This document shows positions 13,253 through 37,166 of a stretch of 64,000 nt of DNA, one piece after another. A program made the translations under genes and the position numbers. The notes under the pieces are model-generated. The model did not search any database. It saw only the letters and a list, made by a program, of their open reading frames with translations, and was not told the DNA's origin. Position 1 is the first letter of the stretch, and the number at the start of each line of letters is the position of its first letter. Source of the stretch: Ramlibacter sp. (GTDB lineage: Bacteria > Pseudomonadota > Gammaproteobacteria > Burkholderiales > Burkholderiaceae_C); the NCBI RefSeq assembly GCF_029866045.1, contig NZ_JARXAB010000023.1, positions 1 to 64,000 of the forward strand. Direction: 5' to 3'.

Positions 13253-14340
13253 GCCAGCCCTTGCCCCCTCCGATCGACCCCCGCATCGCCCGCCTGATCC
13301 GCCTCGACGTACAGTCCATGCACGCCTACGTGGTGCAGGACGCCGCCGGCTTCGTCAAGCTCGACGCCATGGAGAACCCCTACCGGCTCTCTCCCGAGCT
13401 CCAGGCCCAGTTGGGTGAGCGCCTGGGCCAGGTGGCGATCAACCGCTACCCGGGTCCGCGCATCGACGAACTCAAGGCCGCCTTGGCTGCCCACGCCGGG
13501 CTTCCCGCCGGCTGCAGCCTGATCCTGGGCAATGGGTCAGACGAGCTCATCTCCCTGCTGGCCCTGGCCTGCGCCCGGCCCGGCGCCACCGTCCTCGCGC
13601 CGCTGCCTGGCTTCGTGATGTACGCGATGAGCGCACAACTGCAGGGCCTGCGGTTTGTCGGCGTCGACCTCACCGCGGATTTCGCGCTTGACCTGCCGGC
13701 CATGCTGGCCGCCATCGAGCAGCACCAGCCGGCCATCATCTACCTGGCCTATCCGAACAACCCGACGGCCAATCTGTGGGACGTCGCCGCCATGGACGCC
13801 ATCGTCGCCGCCGCGCCAGGCCTGGTGGTGATTGACGAGGCCTACCAGCCCTTTGCTAGCCGCAACTACCTGGGCGGCCTGGCCGCCCATCCCCATGTGG
13901 TTTTGATGCGGACTCTGAGCAAATTTGGGCTGGCCGGCATCCGTCTGGGCTACATGATGGGTGCCAGCGCCCTCATCGCCGAGATCGACAAGGTGCGCCC
14001 GCCCTACAACGTGAGCGTGCTTAATGCCGAGGCGGCGCTCTTCGCCCTCGAGCATGCCGACGTCTACGAGGCCCAGGCCCGCGAGCTGCGCGAAGAGCGG
14101 CAGATGCTGCTGGAGCGCCTGGCGCAGATGCCAGGGGTCCTGCCCTTCCCGAGCGACGCCAACATGATCTTGGTACGGGTGCCCGATGCCAAGGCTGTTT
14201 TCGAAGGTATGAAGCGCCGAGGGGTACTGATCAAGAACATTTCTACAATGCACCCCTTGCTGGCCCAGTGCCTGCGCCTGACTGTCGGCAACCCCGAAGA
14301 GAACGTGCGTATGCTCGCCGCCTTGCAGGCCTCACTATGA
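13249..14340 (+). CDS. hisC: Histidinol-phosphate aminotransferase
   Basis: 363 residues, fold type I PLP enzyme. [15 protein letters not shown] at the N-terminus, [12 protein letters not shown] (PLP phosphate loop), [24 protein letters not shown] (Asp contacting the PLP ring) and [17 protein letters not shown] (PLP lysine) are all present. It overlaps the toxin gene upstream and hisB downstream (14337) by four bases each, so it has no free leader of its own. Confidence 0.96.
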
Positions 14341-32313: not shown

Positions 32314-32536
32314 GCGCCTGTTGGGCTGGGCCCGGTGACTGTTCTGTTGATAACAGCGCCGCGCCTCTGAGGCACGCGGTTGCGGCGTGCTTCGCCGCCC
32401 ACAGGACTCGCTCGAATCTCGGTGTCCACCCGTGAGGGATGGCAGTCGAGACTGGTAGTCCTGCCAGGGCTGCTTGTAACCAAATTTTTTTCCCGAATTG
32501 AATGAGGGGGTGTTCCCGAACCTTAGGAGGCCTCCC

Positions 32537-34006
32537 ATGAGCGAGCAGCTCAATATCCAGGCGCCGGCACGACCTGCCAGCCTTGGATTGGCAGTGTCCG
32601 GTGGTATCCCCACCCGGGTCCTGCCCCTGCAGTCCCTTGCCCCGCGCAGTGCGGGTCCACAGTCAGCCGGTCTGCTCGGTGCAGTTCCCCACCCTGGCCT
32701 CTCCGAGGCCCTGCGCGCGCGCATTGCGCGAGATTTCATGCCCCGCTGGACCCACGAGTGGGGTGGGCGCTTCTTTGCCGAGGGGCGTGTGCCAGGCCCC
32801 CAGGCGGTACGTCTAGACGGCAACGACTACCTGTCAATCGCTGGCCATCCCAAGATCGTCTCCGCCCAGATCGACGCCCTGCGTCGGCACGCCAGCTTCA
32901 TGGTCCAGTCTGGCATCTTCCAGAAAACCGATTCGCCGGGCCTGCGGCTGGAGGCGGATCTGGCGGCTTGGCTGCAGGCCCAGGGCGTGGTCCTCTGCCA
33001 GTCGGGCTATGCGGCCAACCTGGGTCTGCTGCAGGTGATCGCTGAGCCGGATACCCCGGTGTATATCGACGCCTTGGCGCATATGTCACTGTGGGAAGGC
33101 ATTCGCGCCGCGCGTGCGCAGCCTCGGCCCTTCCGGCACAACCAGCCCGACCATCTGGCACGCTGCATCCGCGAGCATGGGCCGGGTGTGGTCGTGGTGG
33201 ACGCTGTCTACAGCACGACCGGGGCTCTGTGCCCTCTGGAAGAAATGGTCCGTGTCGCTGAAGAGGGGGGCTGCATGATCGTGGTCGATGAGTCGCACTC
33301 GCTCGGCACGCATGGCCCACAGGGGCGCGGCCTGTGTGTCGGGCTGGGTCTGGCGCACCGGGTGCACTTCATCACCGCCAGCCTGGCCAAGGCATTTGCG
33401 GGGCGGGCGGGTTTCTTCACCGTCCCCGACGAGTTGCGGCCCTACCTGAGCCTCAACAGTTTCCCCAGTGTCTTCAGTTCCTGCCTCTTGCCCTACGAGG
33501 TGATTGGTCTGCAGGAGACGCTCGCCGTGGTGCAGGCTTCAGACGACGCTCGGCTTCGTTTACGGCAAATCACCCTTCGCCTGCGCCGCCACCTCACCCT
33601 CTTGGGCTACCCGGTGGGGCAGGGCACCGAGCAGATCATTGCCCTGGAGACCGGCCGTGAAGCCGACACGCTGGCGCTACGTGACGCGCTTGAGGCGCAG
33701 GATATCTTTGGCGCCATGTTCTGTGCCCCGGCCACTGCGCGGGATCGGGCCATGGTGCGCCTGACCCTGACCGCGGGCCTCACGGACTCTGAGATCACGC
33801 GGGTGGAGTCCGTGCTGGCCGCCATGGCGCCTGAACTGCGCCCCTGGGATTGGCCGGCCGCCCGGCGCCAGCGCGCAGCGGAGGTCCGGGCGTCCGCGCT
33901 TGGGTCGGGTCTGGGGCGCGATCAGAGCGCCGTCGCCATGCCCCAGGCGGTGAATCCGAAGGCGGTGATGCCTGAGCCAGCTATGCCCGAGCCAGCGTTA
34001 CGCTAG
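32537..34006 (+). CDS. CqsA/LqsA-type alpha-hydroxyketone autoinducer synthase
   Basis: 489 residues, about 100 more than V. cholerae CqsA. PLP fold-type I alpha-oxoamine synthase. The core (about 90-440) shows LDGNDYLSIAGHP, CQSGYAANLGLLQ, IDALAHMSLWEGIR (His182), VVVDAVYSTTGALCPLEE, VDESHSLGTHGPQG (Asp251, His254) and the PLP lysine in ITASLAKAF (Lys285). AHMSLWEG and SLGTHGP are the versions found in CqsA, not in BioF, KBL or ALAS. CqsA joins an acyl-CoA to an amino-acid-derived donor to make CAI-1-type signals. Strong TAGGAGG ribosome site at 32524-32530. The N-terminal 60 and C-terminal 50 residues are extra. The stop shares CTAG with the opposing regulator gene. Confidence 0.9.
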   Translation: MSEQLNIQAPARPASLGLAVSGGIPTRVLPLQSLAPRSAGPQSAGLLGAVPHPGLSEALRARIARDFMPRWTHEWGGRFFAEGRVPGPQAVRLDGNDYLSIAGHPKIVSAQIDALRRHASFMVQSGIFQKTDSPGLRLEADLAAWLQAQGVVLCQSGYAANLGLLQVIAEPDTPVYIDALAHMSLWEGIRAARAQPRPFRHNQPDHLARCIREHGPGVVVVDAVYSTTGALCPLEEMVRVAEEGGCMIVVDESHSLGTHGPQGRGLCVGLGLAHRVHFITASLAKAFAGRAGFFTVPDELRPYLSLNSFPSVFSSCLLPYEVIGLQETLAVVQASDDARLRLRQITLRLRRHLTLLGYPVGQGTEQIIALETGREADTLALRDALEAQDIFGAMFCAPATARDRAMVRLTLTAGLTDSEITRVESVLAAMAPELRPWDWPAARRQRAAEVRASALGSGLGRDQSAVAMPQAVNPKAVMPEPAMPEPALR

Positions 34007-35001
34007 TCGCCCAAGCCCTGGATGCGGCGCGCGCCCTGCGCTGCGAGCCAGGATCGGTAGCCTTGTATTGGCTCTGGCAAGGCCTCTGTCGGTAAGGGAA
34101 ACAGGGCTGCCAGTAGTTGGCCGCCCTCGTCGAGCGTAAAGGCCTGCTGGAACGGGCCCGGACCGTTCAAACCCAGGCTCTGGTGAACCTCCGGCGCCAC
34201 GAGCACATCGCCCTGCTCCAAGAGCCCCCGATAGTCCCCTGGTAAGCCGCTCTCGGGCGCTGTGGTGAGCTCATGCACCCGCTGTGGCAGCGCCTCGCGC
34301 GCTTGCAGTTGCAGCCAGCTGGCACGGCCCTCGGCGTCCAGGCCCAGCACGCCAAAGGGGTCTCCGCACACCACATACTCCACCCACTCCCGGTCCATCA
34401 GCGCCTTGAGCGCGCGACCCGCACCGCCTTGGCGGAGCAGGGCCATCTGTTGCGGCCGCAGCGTGGCGCGCCAGATAGCGTCGTGCCGGTCGTGGCAATG
34501 GTCGGCCAGGCGCTCCAGGCTTCGCGCAAGCAGGCTGGCCATCTCGGCGGACTGTTTGGCGATGTACTGGTCGATCAGGCCGTGATTGAAGGCGTCGACC
34601 GCCACTCGCTCATCGGCCTGCCCCGTGAGTAGCACGCGCGCGCCTGGCCAGCCGGTGCGCAGCTGGCCGAACACTTCGAGTCCGCTCAGCCCCGGCATCA
34701 TGTGGTCACTGACCCCGACATGCGTCAGACCATACCGTTGGGAATGCCGCGCCCAGTAGCGGAGCATCTGTGGGATGAGAGGGCGCCCCTGGCGCCAGAG
34801 GTCGACCACGGTCTCCTGTCGGTAGCAGTCGGCGGCCCAGTCCTTTTGCTCCTCCCGCATATGTTGCAAGCAGCCATGCGGCCGCAGGAAGAGGCGCACA
34901 TGGCGCTCGGGCGGCAGCAGCAAGGCCATCAGGTCGAGGTAATCAGGGTCGTCGTCGAGCAGGAAGATGCTGCCGGGGCGTCGGAACAGGTGAAAGCTCA
35001 T
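34003..35001 (-). CDS. Response regulator of the Cqs/Lqs-type system (LqsR/JqsR-like)
   Basis: 332 residues. Receiver domain with the acidic cluster DDD (16-18), likely phosphoacceptor Asp99 in VGVSDHMMPGLSG, Thr126 in VLLTGQADERVAVDAFNHGLID and Lys149. An insertion of about 40 residues lies between the first helix and the phosphoacceptor strand (roughly 45-88), making the receiver long. The C-terminal half (about 190-332) has no recognisable DNA-binding or enzymatic motif. It starts inside the sensor kinase stop (ATGA), so the two are translationally coupled. The layout fits LqsR/JqsR from memory. Confidence 0.8.
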   Translation of the reverse strand: MSFHLFRRPGSIFLLDDDPDYLDLMALLLPPERHVRLFLRPHGCLQHMREEQKDWAADCYRQETVVDLWRQGRPLIPQMLRYWARHSQRYGLTHVGVSDHMMPGLSGLEVFGQLRTGWPGARVLLTGQADERVAVDAFNHGLIDQYIAKQSAEMASLLARSLERLADHCHDRHDAIWRATLRPQQMALLRQGGAGRALKALMDREWVEYVVCGDPFGVLGLDAEGRASWLQLQAREALPQRVHELTTAPESGLPGDYRGLLEQGDVLVAPEVHQSLGLNGPGPFQQAFTLDEGGQLLAALFPLPTEALPEPIQGYRSWLAAQGARRIQGLGD

Positions 35002-36473
35002 ATGACTTTGTTCGGCGTGCTGGGGCGCATCTGGGTCGCCCGAGACTTCGCTGCGGTTGATTTGCGGGAGGCGGCCGAGACCGGCAGCTCGATGATGAAG
35101 GTGGCGCCTTCTCCGAGCGCCGACTCGACCCGCAGGCGGCCGCCGCCTCGGTGAACCACCCGCTGGCAAAAGGCCAGGCCCAGGCCGTGTCCGCTGGCAT
35201 GGTGGCTGGAGACGAAGGGCTGGAACAGGCGCGCCTGCAGATGCGGTGGGATGCCAATGCCGCGGTCGATGACCCGTATGCGGCCCCAGCGCGGGGAGGT
35301 TTGCTCAATTTCCACCCGCAGGTCGCCAGGCACAGGGCCTTCTGGCAGGCTGGCCAGGGCGCGCAACGCGTTGCGCAGGAGGTTGTCTACGACCTGGAGG
35401 AACAGGCTGCGCACAGTGTCGAATTCGAAGTCGCTGTGCACCACCAACTCGACACATTGGCGCTCACGTTCATGGCGGAAGGGGTGTGACGCCATGGCTT
35501 CCCGCAGCAGGCAGGCGGCGCTCACACTCTCGGTGGCTGGTGGCAGCCGGAGCAGGCGTGCATTGGTGATTTGGGTGTCGATTTGCCGGTGCATATTGCG
35601 CACCAGGTTGAGTAGCCGATGGGCCAGGTGTTCGACCTGCTCACGGCGCAGGGGCGTTGCGGTGCGGGCCTCCTGCCGCATGGCCTCACCGATGAGATTC
35701 ATCGTGGCCAGCGGGGTGCGCAGCTCATGGGCCATGATGCCCATGGTGTCCAACGCCTGCTTGAGTTGTTCCCGCCGCAGGTTCGAGGTGGACATGCCGA
35801 GCATCAGCCCGGTGGCGGCGCAAAACACAAAGACCACCGCCTGCGCCTGGACGGCTTCGGTGGGCAGCGACAGCGTGTCGGGGCCGAACCCGGCGAACAG
35901 CATCCAGCCGGCCGGTAGCCCGGTCACGAGGCCCAGGCTCGCCAGCCGCCAGTCGGTCAGGTTGAGATAGATGAGCAGCATTGCCGCGGCGGAGGCAAAC
36001 CAGACCGCATTGCCGCCGTTGCACAGGTACATCCAGGTGAAGTAGACGGGCAAGGTGATCCAGAAGATCACCGACGTGACCAAGGTGGCGGTTCGTGTGG
36101 GCGGGCAATGAGAAAGGGCTGGTGTGACGATGAGCACCAGGCCGAGGCCGCTCATCGCGAGACGCTGCCAGGGGTCGTCATAGGGCTGGGGCGTCCAGCG
36201 CGTCCACAGAAGGTGGAACAGGGGGTGCCCTACCGCTGTGAAAAGGCCGAGTGCCCGTACCCGGCGGGGCAGTGGGCTCTGCAGCGGGTCGAACAGCGGC
36301 GCCAGCAGGGTTTCACCCCACGAGGAGAACCATGAGGAGACCCTCGACGCGAACCATGCAGCAGCCCGGCCAATGGCCCATGAAGCCGGGATACCTGACC
36401 ACCCCTGTCGCCAGGACCTGGCCGTCGTGCGCGAGCGGGTTGATGCCATCGTTTGTAGTGCTATCGTTCTCAT
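34998..36473 (-). CDS. CqsS/LqsS-type membrane sensor histidine kinase
   Basis: 491 residues from the ATG at 36473; an ATG at 36449 is equally possible. Multi-span N-terminal domain (about 73-228, six or so segments) with GHPLFHLLWTRWTPQPYDD, which lines up with the first sensor segment of CqsS, and LPVYFTWMYLCNGGNAVW. H-box IMAHELRTPLATMN (His249), N-box VVDNLLRNALRAL, G1 IDRGIGIPP, F-box LFQPF and G2 GHGLGLAF. No fused receiver, unlike Vibrio CqsS; the separate regulator downstream fills that role. It should sense the product of the synthase. Confidence 0.85.
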   Translation of the reverse strand: MRTIALQTMASTRSRTTARSWRQGWSGIPASWAIGRAAAWFASRVSSWFSSWGETLLAPLFDPLQSPLPRRVRALGLFTAVGHPLFHLLWTRWTPQPYDDPWQRLAMSGLGLVLIVTPALSHCPPTRTATLVTSVIFWITLPVYFTWMYLCNGGNAVWFASAAAMLLIYLNLTDWRLASLGLVTGLPAGWMLFAGFGPDTLSLPTEAVQAQAVVFVFCAATGLMLGMSTSNLRREQLKQALDTMGIMAHELRTPLATMNLIGEAMRQEARTATPLRREQVEHLAHRLLNLVRNMHRQIDTQITNARLLRLPPATESVSAACLLREAMASHPFRHERERQCVELVVHSDFEFDTVRSLFLQVVDNLLRNALRALASLPEGPVPGDLRVEIEQTSPRWGRIRVIDRGIGIPPHLQARLFQPFVSSHHASGHGLGLAFCQRVVHRGGGRLRVESALGEGATFIIELPVSAASRKSTAAKSRATQMRPSTPNKVI

Positions 36474-36497
36474 TTTCGAGGACGTACGACAAACACC

Positions 36498-37166
36498 ATG
36501 GGAGATCCTGTTAACTTCTACAGCGTGTGCCTGGACGGCATCCTGAGCGACTGGCTGGCCACCTTGCGCGAATTTGCCGTCGAGGCGGTGGTTGTGCTCG
36601 GGCCCGACCCGCTGGGCGGCGCCGACGACCGCCAGGTCGTTTGTGTCCATCCGCCGATGGCGTCTGACACCGCCAGCGCGCTGGCGGCCAGCACTGATTT
36701 CAGCGGCGCCTGGCGCGACTCCGACGCACCCTTGGTGGCCTGGCAGCACATCGCCCGGGGCGCGGCCCTGCACGACACCGGCTGGCGCGGCCTGGCGCGC
36801 GCCCATGGCTTTCAGTCCATGGTTCGAGTGGAGTTTCCCTTGCCGGCACAGCGCTCCTTCGAATGCTTCATGTTCAGCCCGCGCGAGCTGATCGACCGCA
36901 CCGAGGCAGCGCTGCTGGCCTGGTCGACCCTGAGCGTATGGCCCCTGGTACGCCGCTCCATCGCCGACGAACGCTCGGCGCTGAGCCCGCGTGAACGCCA
37001 ATGCCTCTCGCTGGCCTTTGACGGCCACACCGCCCGGGAGAGCGCCTCGCGCCTGTCTTGCACCGAGCGAACGGTCAATTACCACCTGGCCAATGCCATG
37101 GCTAAGCTCAAGGTGGAGAACAAGCTGGCGGCAATCCAGCGTGCAAGCTGGATCGGTGCCATCTGA
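36498..37166 (+). CDS. LuxR-type transcriptional regulator
   Basis: 222 residues. The C-terminal GerE-type helix-turn-helix (about 158-215) shows LSPRERQCLSLAFDGHTARESA and CTERTVNYHLANAMAKLKVENK. The N-terminal part loosely resembles an autoinducer domain (WQHIARGAALHDTGWRGLA, HGFQSMVRVEFPL) but lacks most conserved acyl-homoserine-lactone contacts. No luxI gene is in the window. It is divergent from the sensor kinase with only 24 bases between start codons, so promoters must lie within the coding ends. Probably the output or a co-regulator of the signalling cassette. Confidence 0.8.
   Translation: MGDPVNFYSVCLDGILSDWLATLREFAVEAVVVLGPDPLGGADDRQVVCVHPPMASDTASALAASTDFSGAWRDSDAPLVAWQHIARGAALHDTGWRGLARAHGFQSMVRVEFPLPAQRSFECFMFSPRELIDRTEAALLAWSTLSVWPLVRRSIADERSALSPRERQCLSLAFDGHTARESASRLSCTERTVNYHLANAMAKLKVENKLAAIQRASWIGAI

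Follow-up and report, generated by a model that had tools for sequence, protein, structure and literature searches.

A hydroxyketone-type quorum-sensing cassette of Ramlibacter with its own LuxR-family regulator, a probable activator of the synthase gene

We propose that a 64,000-nucleotide stretch of Ramlibacter sp. DNA (positions 1 to 64,000 of contig NZ_JARXAB010000023.1, assembly GCF_029866045.1; hereafter the window, whose numbering is used throughout) carries a four-gene hydroxyketone-type quorum-sensing cassette with a built-in LuxR-family regulator, which probably activates the synthase gene from a lux-box-like dyad. The genes for the synthase, a response regulator (the receiver), a sensor kinase and LuxR had been described in an initial annotation of the window, and a check of its open reading frames finds all four at 32537..37166, with secA and coaX flanking. 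The cassette is real: among the best 80 of 164 synthase relatives, whose loci we surveyed, 75 show the same genes in the same order and on the same strands (synthase +, receiver -, kinase -, luxR +). The five exceptions are three loci cut by contig ends (L016, L029, L033), one without LuxR (L044) and one with the synthase but without the other three genes (L055). The Cqs/Lqs-type identity given to the cassette in the initial annotation is borne out by NCBIfam, PDB, fold and tree results, but the significance of LuxR had been left undeveloped there. The synthase, kinase and receiver add to a known class, and what is new is the LuxR link.

The synthase gene faces those of the receiver and kinase and overlaps the receiver gene tail to tail in CTAG, and the luxR gene is divergent from that of the kinase (Table 1). 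Because the kinase stop and the receiver start share ATGA, the receiver and kinase genes are coupled. The kinase start is uncertain, with an in-frame ATG at 36449 or 36473. The initial annotation treated this order as unfamiliar from the known systems, which is half right. A synthase facing receiver and kinase also occurs elsewhere, in 9 of 20 stretches from other families (L189-L194, L196, L197, L201); the unusual feature is a conserved LuxR gene with apparent operators. The host assembly comprises 3.85 Mb in 182 contigs and is 93% complete and 5% contaminated, and the nearest public relative of the synthase, 97% identical, comes from a record labelled Ramlibacter sp.

Table 1. Genes and candidate regulatory sites of the cassette, in window coordinates
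Feature	Position	Strand	Basis or remark
Diverged lux-box-type dyad CTGGTA-GTCC-TGCCAG, CT-N12-AG kept	32452..32467	.	Aligned with L001 and L002; spacing to TTGAATG
TTGAATG, counterpart of TTCAATG; predicted synthase transcript start	32498..32504	+	
Alpha-hydroxyketone autoinducer synthase (CqsA/LqsA/JqsA type), 489 aa	32537..34006	+	NF005526, PDB 3hqt, tree
LqsR-type response regulator: receiver and C-terminal domain without Pfam match	34003..35001	-	
CqsS/LqsS-type sensor histidine kinase without fused receiver	34998..36449	-	Start uncertain
LuxR-family regulator, 222 aa: N-terminal domain of AHL-receptor fold, C-terminal GerE HTH	36498..37166	+	
Second dyad CCTGTTAACTTCTACAGC, luxR codons 4-9, 4/14 mismatches, CT-N12-AG kept	36507..36524	.	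Codon bias and mismatch test, 69 luxR genes

Dyads upstream of the synthase gene and inside luxR

Of 77 public synthase upstream regions, 69 contain an inverted repeat, CCCCTGTCA-N4-TGACAGGGG (50 distinct), at 3 or fewer mismatches in 18, a level reached by 0 of 385 shuffles; three of the 80 regions were excluded for having too little DNA. The letters of its spacer vary, while the length is 4 in 70 of 72 cases. Across 113 synthase loci (1.91 Mb, with certain genomes represented twice) there are 80 dyads with no more than 2 mismatches, every one of them upstream of the synthase. The dyad agrees with CT-N12-AG, the lux-box pattern of the LuxR family, and in 66 of the 69 loci a TTCAATG-like element begins 38-40 bp after the dyad centre. 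At LuxR-activated promoters the site is centred about 42 bp before the transcript start, and the TTCAATG-like element would place the transcript start of the synthase near +42 from the dyad, as at such promoters. We tried and rejected the idea that the dyad is the secA terminator, since it is present without secA upstream and is followed by TTTT within 12 bases in only 3 of 69 loci.

The eight upstream regions above the mismatch cut are those of L013, L019 and L049 (4 mismatches), L002 and L078 (5), L044 and L055 (6) and L001 (7). Leaving aside loci truncated at a contig end, L044 and L055 are also the two that have no LuxR. L044 lacks both LuxR and the dyad, and its sister in the synthase tree, L037, has LuxR together with a perfect dyad.

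A second candidate site lies within the luxR coding sequence, where codons 4-9, encoding mostly PVNFDS, read CCTGTyAACTTTGACAGy. The codon test used 69 genes, after removal of the 13 of 106 luxR genes whose match did not start at residue 1 and of near-duplicate genomes, and the choice of codons at this place is strongly skewed. Proline is CCT in 69 of 69 genes (8% elsewhere in the gene) and valine is GTG in none of 54 (57% elsewhere), the remaining 15 genes having alanine; phenylalanine is TTT in 65 of 68 (30% elsewhere) and serine AGT in 52 of 68 (9% elsewhere). Counting matches with 3 or fewer mismatches in 14, 67 of the 69 luxR genes have the site, versus 0 of 897 control windows. The gap between the kinase and luxR genes holds no dyad in 72 loci (5-9 mismatches). 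Separately, 51 of 65 public loci have a TATTGTC-like element 28-40 bp ahead of luxR; this element, often within GGTGATATTGTCACAGCC, is possibly the luxR promoter and is not evident at 36300-36497 of the window.

The dyad also follows LuxR across genomes. An even sample of 349 genomes from the family was surveyed: the synthase scored above cut-off in 34, LuxR (profile E <=1e-25) was found in 40 and the receiver (profile E <=1e-20) in 48. Of the 34 synthase genomes, 31 have LuxR, and all LuxR genomes but one (39 of 40) have the receiver, that exception (G279) having only pieces of luxR. A near-perfect dyad, defined by at most 1 of 16 mismatches, occurs in 35 of the 349: in 24 of the 40 genomes with LuxR and in 11 of the 309 without it (p 2e-18, a figure that relatedness inflates). 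Summed over genomes there are 54 such sites with LuxR and 11 in the others, and the reversed control pattern gives 2 in all.

By a crude gene call, 26 of 34 fetched sites away from the synthase are intergenic. Near-perfect dyads stand just upstream of genes of 592-605 aa in L272, L277, L284 and L301; in L272 and L284 these are ShlB-type secretion pores by Pfam, and those of L277 and L301 are alike in length. Other neighbours encode PhnD-like binding proteins (L270, L283) and a TctC protein (L278). Four further loci (L286, L287, L290, L291) have a perfect dyad just downstream of a gene whose product has, by eye, an M16 peptidase-like N-terminus.

Receiver-LuxR pairs and the proposed circuit

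The receiver and LuxR stay together where the synthase is absent. Nine genomes have LuxR without the synthase, and in eight of them an LqsR-type receiver gene lies directly beside luxR; the fetched stretches of these eight hold no cassette-type kinase. The most distant LuxR, at 115 bits and on a long branch, belongs to one of these eight genomes, G070. In G272 and G055 the pair sits between secA and coaX, and in G272 a dyad is left between receiver and secA, at the place where the synthase would be expected. On the LuxR tree the synthase label changes at least 5 times, 2 of the changes being forced by starred branches; sequences with stops or short matches were left out of the trees.

Two such sets are borne on plasmids: LuxR and an LqsR-type receiver on pPNAP01 of P. 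naphthalenivorans CJ2 (L205 2480-5987), and LuxR, a kinase read in two pieces and a receiver on a plasmid of Polaromonas P1-6 (L207 2795-5987). Seven records gave a synthase match, neither of these plasmids among them, and the two sets are possibly listening modules. Two other plasmids carry parts of the cassette. Plasmid 1 of Polaromonas JS666 (L204 3626-5987) has a cassette-type kinase and receiver near BREX defence genes; the stretch holds no LuxR and no synthase, and a helix-turn-helix (HTH) gene beside the kinase was considered as a LuxR relative and rejected as unrelated. A plasmid of Rhodoferax ferrireducens (L206 5001-5987) has a lone LqsR-type receiver among PRTRC plasmid genes.

We propose the following circuit. 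The synthase would make a hydroxyketone, and the kinase would sense it and alter the phosphorylation of the receiver. The receiver has no recognised DNA-binding domain and would act by touching LuxR. LuxR in turn would activate the synthase gene, setting up a positive feedback loop, and may also activate a few other operons and control its own gene from the site inside luxR.

The C-terminal part of LqsR is unlike any known output domain according to the available part of one account (PMC3376566), and the route from hydroxyketone signal to gene expression is therefore an open question. A LuxR partner would explain how a Legionella-type response protein without a known output part reaches DNA, and the conserved partner and candidate operator make the question directly testable in environmental bacteria that are harmless. 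More broadly, and with a little less than even confidence, we suggest that LqsR-family receivers are phospho-switched partners of LuxR-family factors, and that hydroxyketone and acyl-homoserine lactone (AHL) quorum sensing thus meet in a single adaptor-plus-LuxR module, which in Comamonadaceae controls the synthase through a lux box and on plasmids survives as a synthase-free listener. A conserved LuxR partner would join two kinds of quorum sensing that are usually treated as separate and would predict the wiring of many cassettes in Ramlibacter, Polaromonas, Hydrogenophaga and Variovorax.

Several results weigh against the proposed role of LuxR. In the window itself the upstream dyad is diverged, with 7 of 18 mismatches to that of its relatives, and a plain scan of the upstream region prefers another place, with 6 mismatches, which is chance level; because its mismatches exceed those of the best chance match, the window's dyad is recognised by position and symmetry only. 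From dyad centre to element the distance is 38 bp in the window (TTGAATG), 38 bp in L001 and 39 bp in L002. The window's genome has no dyad at 1 mismatch or fewer, and its 21 sites at 3 or fewer, against 4 for the control, include none at the synthase and say little, the pattern being a GC-rich inverted repeat. Across the survey, a near-perfect dyad is missing from 16 of the 40 genomes with LuxR, and among the 11 dyads of LuxR-free genomes four are perfect (G127, G235, G303, G304). The internal sites comprise few distinct sequences, 12 among 65 public and related luxR genes. In nine stretches from other Burkholderiales families the synthase, receiver and kinase occur with no LuxR found nearby, and the receiver also occurs in nine genomes that lack this LuxR, among them L142 and L144, where the kinase accompanies it, so it can function by another route. 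In the genome survey, scoring was limited to the 8 best LuxR candidates and the 6 best receiver candidates of each genome, and the LuxR tree was built by a quick method, its ten synthase-free rows including two plasmids.

The LuxR protein and competing explanations

The structural model of the cassette LuxR has the fold of the AHL receptors QscR, RhlR and TraR in a structure search, with GAF-like domains also among the matches at lower rank, and a GerE HTH is present. The protein does not match Autoind_bind (PF03472). Among the conserved pocket residues of TraR (W57 and Y61, which contact the lactone, and D70, W85 and G113), the equivalents of the last three are kept: D67 and W82 each in 38 of 40 rows, 15 residues apart as is usual, and G104 in all 40. 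None of the 40 rows has an aromatic residue at the positions equivalent to W57 and Y61. We therefore rejected the idea of a plain AHL receptor, given the missing Autoind_bind match and the two missing pocket aromatics; the host genome also has no convincing luxI, its sole PF00765 match being a marginal one of 26.4 bits in a 325-aa frame. The link to the cassette would suggest a non-lactone ligand or a protein partner for a LuxR solo. In alignment A3, from which the luxR of L005 was excluded for a frame shift, the LuxR of the window shares 53-98% identity with the other 29 rows. In that locus (13599-14244, Ramlibacter montanisoli B156) luxR spans the shift, which may be a sequencing error or mark a pseudogene.

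The same features would fit a LuxR that is itself a cytoplasmic hydroxyketone receptor, working in parallel to the membrane kinase and needing no contact with the receiver. The AHL-receptor fold and the kept D, W and G residues of the pocket speak for this reading, and the loss of both aromatics is what would be expected for a non-lactone ligand. However, the receiver-LuxR pair persists where there is no synthase, and the pocket residues were placed by spacing and an hhalign match of low confidence in the pocket region. On balance we think direct binding of the signal by LuxR rather unlikely, and prefer a LuxR that acts with the receiver.

It is also conceivable that the dyad is bound by another regulator, or acts in the leader of the synthase as an RNA hairpin. 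The RNA can pair into a 9-bp stem closed by a 4-base loop. Across 52 distinct dyads the most frequent inner change, seen 9 times, turns a left-hand C into T and preserves a G-U pair, against only 2 right-hand changes that break it; one near-perfect dyad is also present in each of 11 of the 309 genomes without this LuxR. The hairpin is disfavoured by the position of the element, 39-46 bases past the dyad centre, since the dyad lies upstream of the transcript if the element marks the start. The variable letters and near-constant length of the spacer, and the predominantly intergenic placement of the further genomic sites, argue against both versions, and we judge either one improbable. A LuxR site remains our preferred reading of the dyad. 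Least probable of all, in our view, is an ordinary Lqs-type cassette lying beside an unrelated LuxR gene of the secA-coaX neighbourhood: secA or coaX flanks many loci and the pair of G272 and G055 lies between them, but LuxR still follows the kinase in the 9 of 75 full-order loci with neither gene in the fetched stretch, it accompanies the receiver on the two Polaromonas plasmids, and the dyad tracks it.

Synthase, kinase, receiver and known systems

The synthase scores 525.9 bits against NF005526, the alpha-hydroxyketone autoinducer synthase model (cut-off 428), and 206.8 bits against the BioF model, below its cut-off of 426.45. A PDB search returns CqsA (3hqt) at E 5.9e-96, the next non-CqsA match standing at 4.2e-37. 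In the synthase tree, 35 synthases are separated at 100/100 from 5 pyridoxal-phosphate-enzyme outgroups, of which three are serine palmitoyltransferases and two were not scanned; the expected grouping with CqsA thus holds in the tree against these five outgroups, while the comparison with BioF, KBL and ALAS is one of scores. By score, the grouping with BioF, KBL or ALAS that the initial annotation had named as a refutation did not occur. Three motifs first taken as CqsA-specific, AHMSLWEG, SLGTHGP and SLAK, all occur in the solved V. cholerae CqsA 3hqt as well. An N-terminal extension of about 50 aa is poorly conserved. We infer from this sequence evidence that the synthase makes a hydroxyketone and that the strain both produces its signal and responds to it.

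The kinase matches HATPase_c above cut-off (84.4 bits) and HisKA below it (22.7 bits, cut-off 26.9). It aligns with V. campbellii CqsS across both sensor and kinase parts, and CqsS scores 188.6 bits against the kinase profile, over profile positions 14-410. The first sensor segment had been read as CqsS-like, and indeed GHPLFHLLWTRWTPQPYDD aligns with GFPIYYIVWEFMFPQPYEN of V. campbellii CqsS. Residue H184 is invariant in 18 aligned rows; the kinase of L073 was left out of the alignment (A7). The V. campbellii CqsS reading frame has 690 aa, compared with about 483 for the window's kinase, and that protein is a hybrid kinase with a fused receiver. The separate receiver of the cassette matches, as a model, the LqsR structure 6sy9 across its full length and has the phospho-acceptor aspartate. 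D16, D17, D99, T126 and K149 are kept in 23 of 23 receivers of alignment A4, the eight synthase-free ones included. LqsR is also the subject of a later structure paper, reportedly by Hochstrasser in 2020.

Each known system shares part of this set. The Lqs cluster of Legionella pneumophila (lqsA-lqsR-hdeD-lqsS) likewise has the synthase, a separate kinase and a separate LqsR-type receiver and differs by hdeD and in gene order; its accounts, in the text available, name no LuxR gene among the components (PMC3376566; PMC5289986). The Jqs system of Janthinobacterium and Duganella (jqsA, jqsS, jqsR) again shares synthase, kinase and receiver. Its description, as far as the available part goes, reports a conserved palindrome, TTGA-N6/7-TCAA, upstream of jqsA and most regulated genes, a 49-bp deletion showing that the palindrome region matters for vioA, and luxR solos in some strains, with none named in the Jqs cluster (PMC5080296). 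This JAI-1 motif differs from the CCCCTGTCA-N4-TGACAGGGG of the Ramlibacter-type cassettes. Vibrio CqsA/CqsS shares the homologous synthase and sensor kinase, and for V. cholerae the portion available reports no LqsR homologue in the cluster (PMC3566124). From AHL receptors such as QscR, RhlR, SdiA and TraR, and from LuxR solos, the cassette LuxR differs in having no Autoind_bind match, in lacking the two pocket aromatics and in belonging to a hydroxyketone cassette instead of accompanying luxI. The available parts of reviews and of the Jqs papers describe synthase, kinase and receiver and name no LuxR as a cassette part, and among the matches listed, judged by titles and abstract openings in mostly open literature, no paper deals with this LuxR or dyad. 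The novelty, as a variation on a known core, lies in the LuxR link with its dyads and in the persistence of the receiver-LuxR pair.

Other associations of these protein families appear in the survey. In G035 (L143 7106-10139) and G132 (L145 6673-9690), luxI (PF00765) is in an operon with the gene for an LqsR-like protein with a degenerate receiver, and an AHL-type luxR (PF03472) is divergent; these loci appear to be an AHL system with an LqsR relative. G355 (L182 5654-10202) has a kinase-receiver-LuxR row, the LuxR gene beginning 12 bp past that of the receiver, with the synthase divergent, and by this arrangement seems to be an independent LuxR link in another family. More distant CqsS-like kinases, in which the sensor part is matched too, lie outside the cassette in frames of 838-924 aa: in G272 (C1:37347-38543 and C1:636179-637405), G055 (C71:8946-10142 and C139:12103-13278), G198 (C1:2655977-2657152) and G097 (C24:154969-156144).

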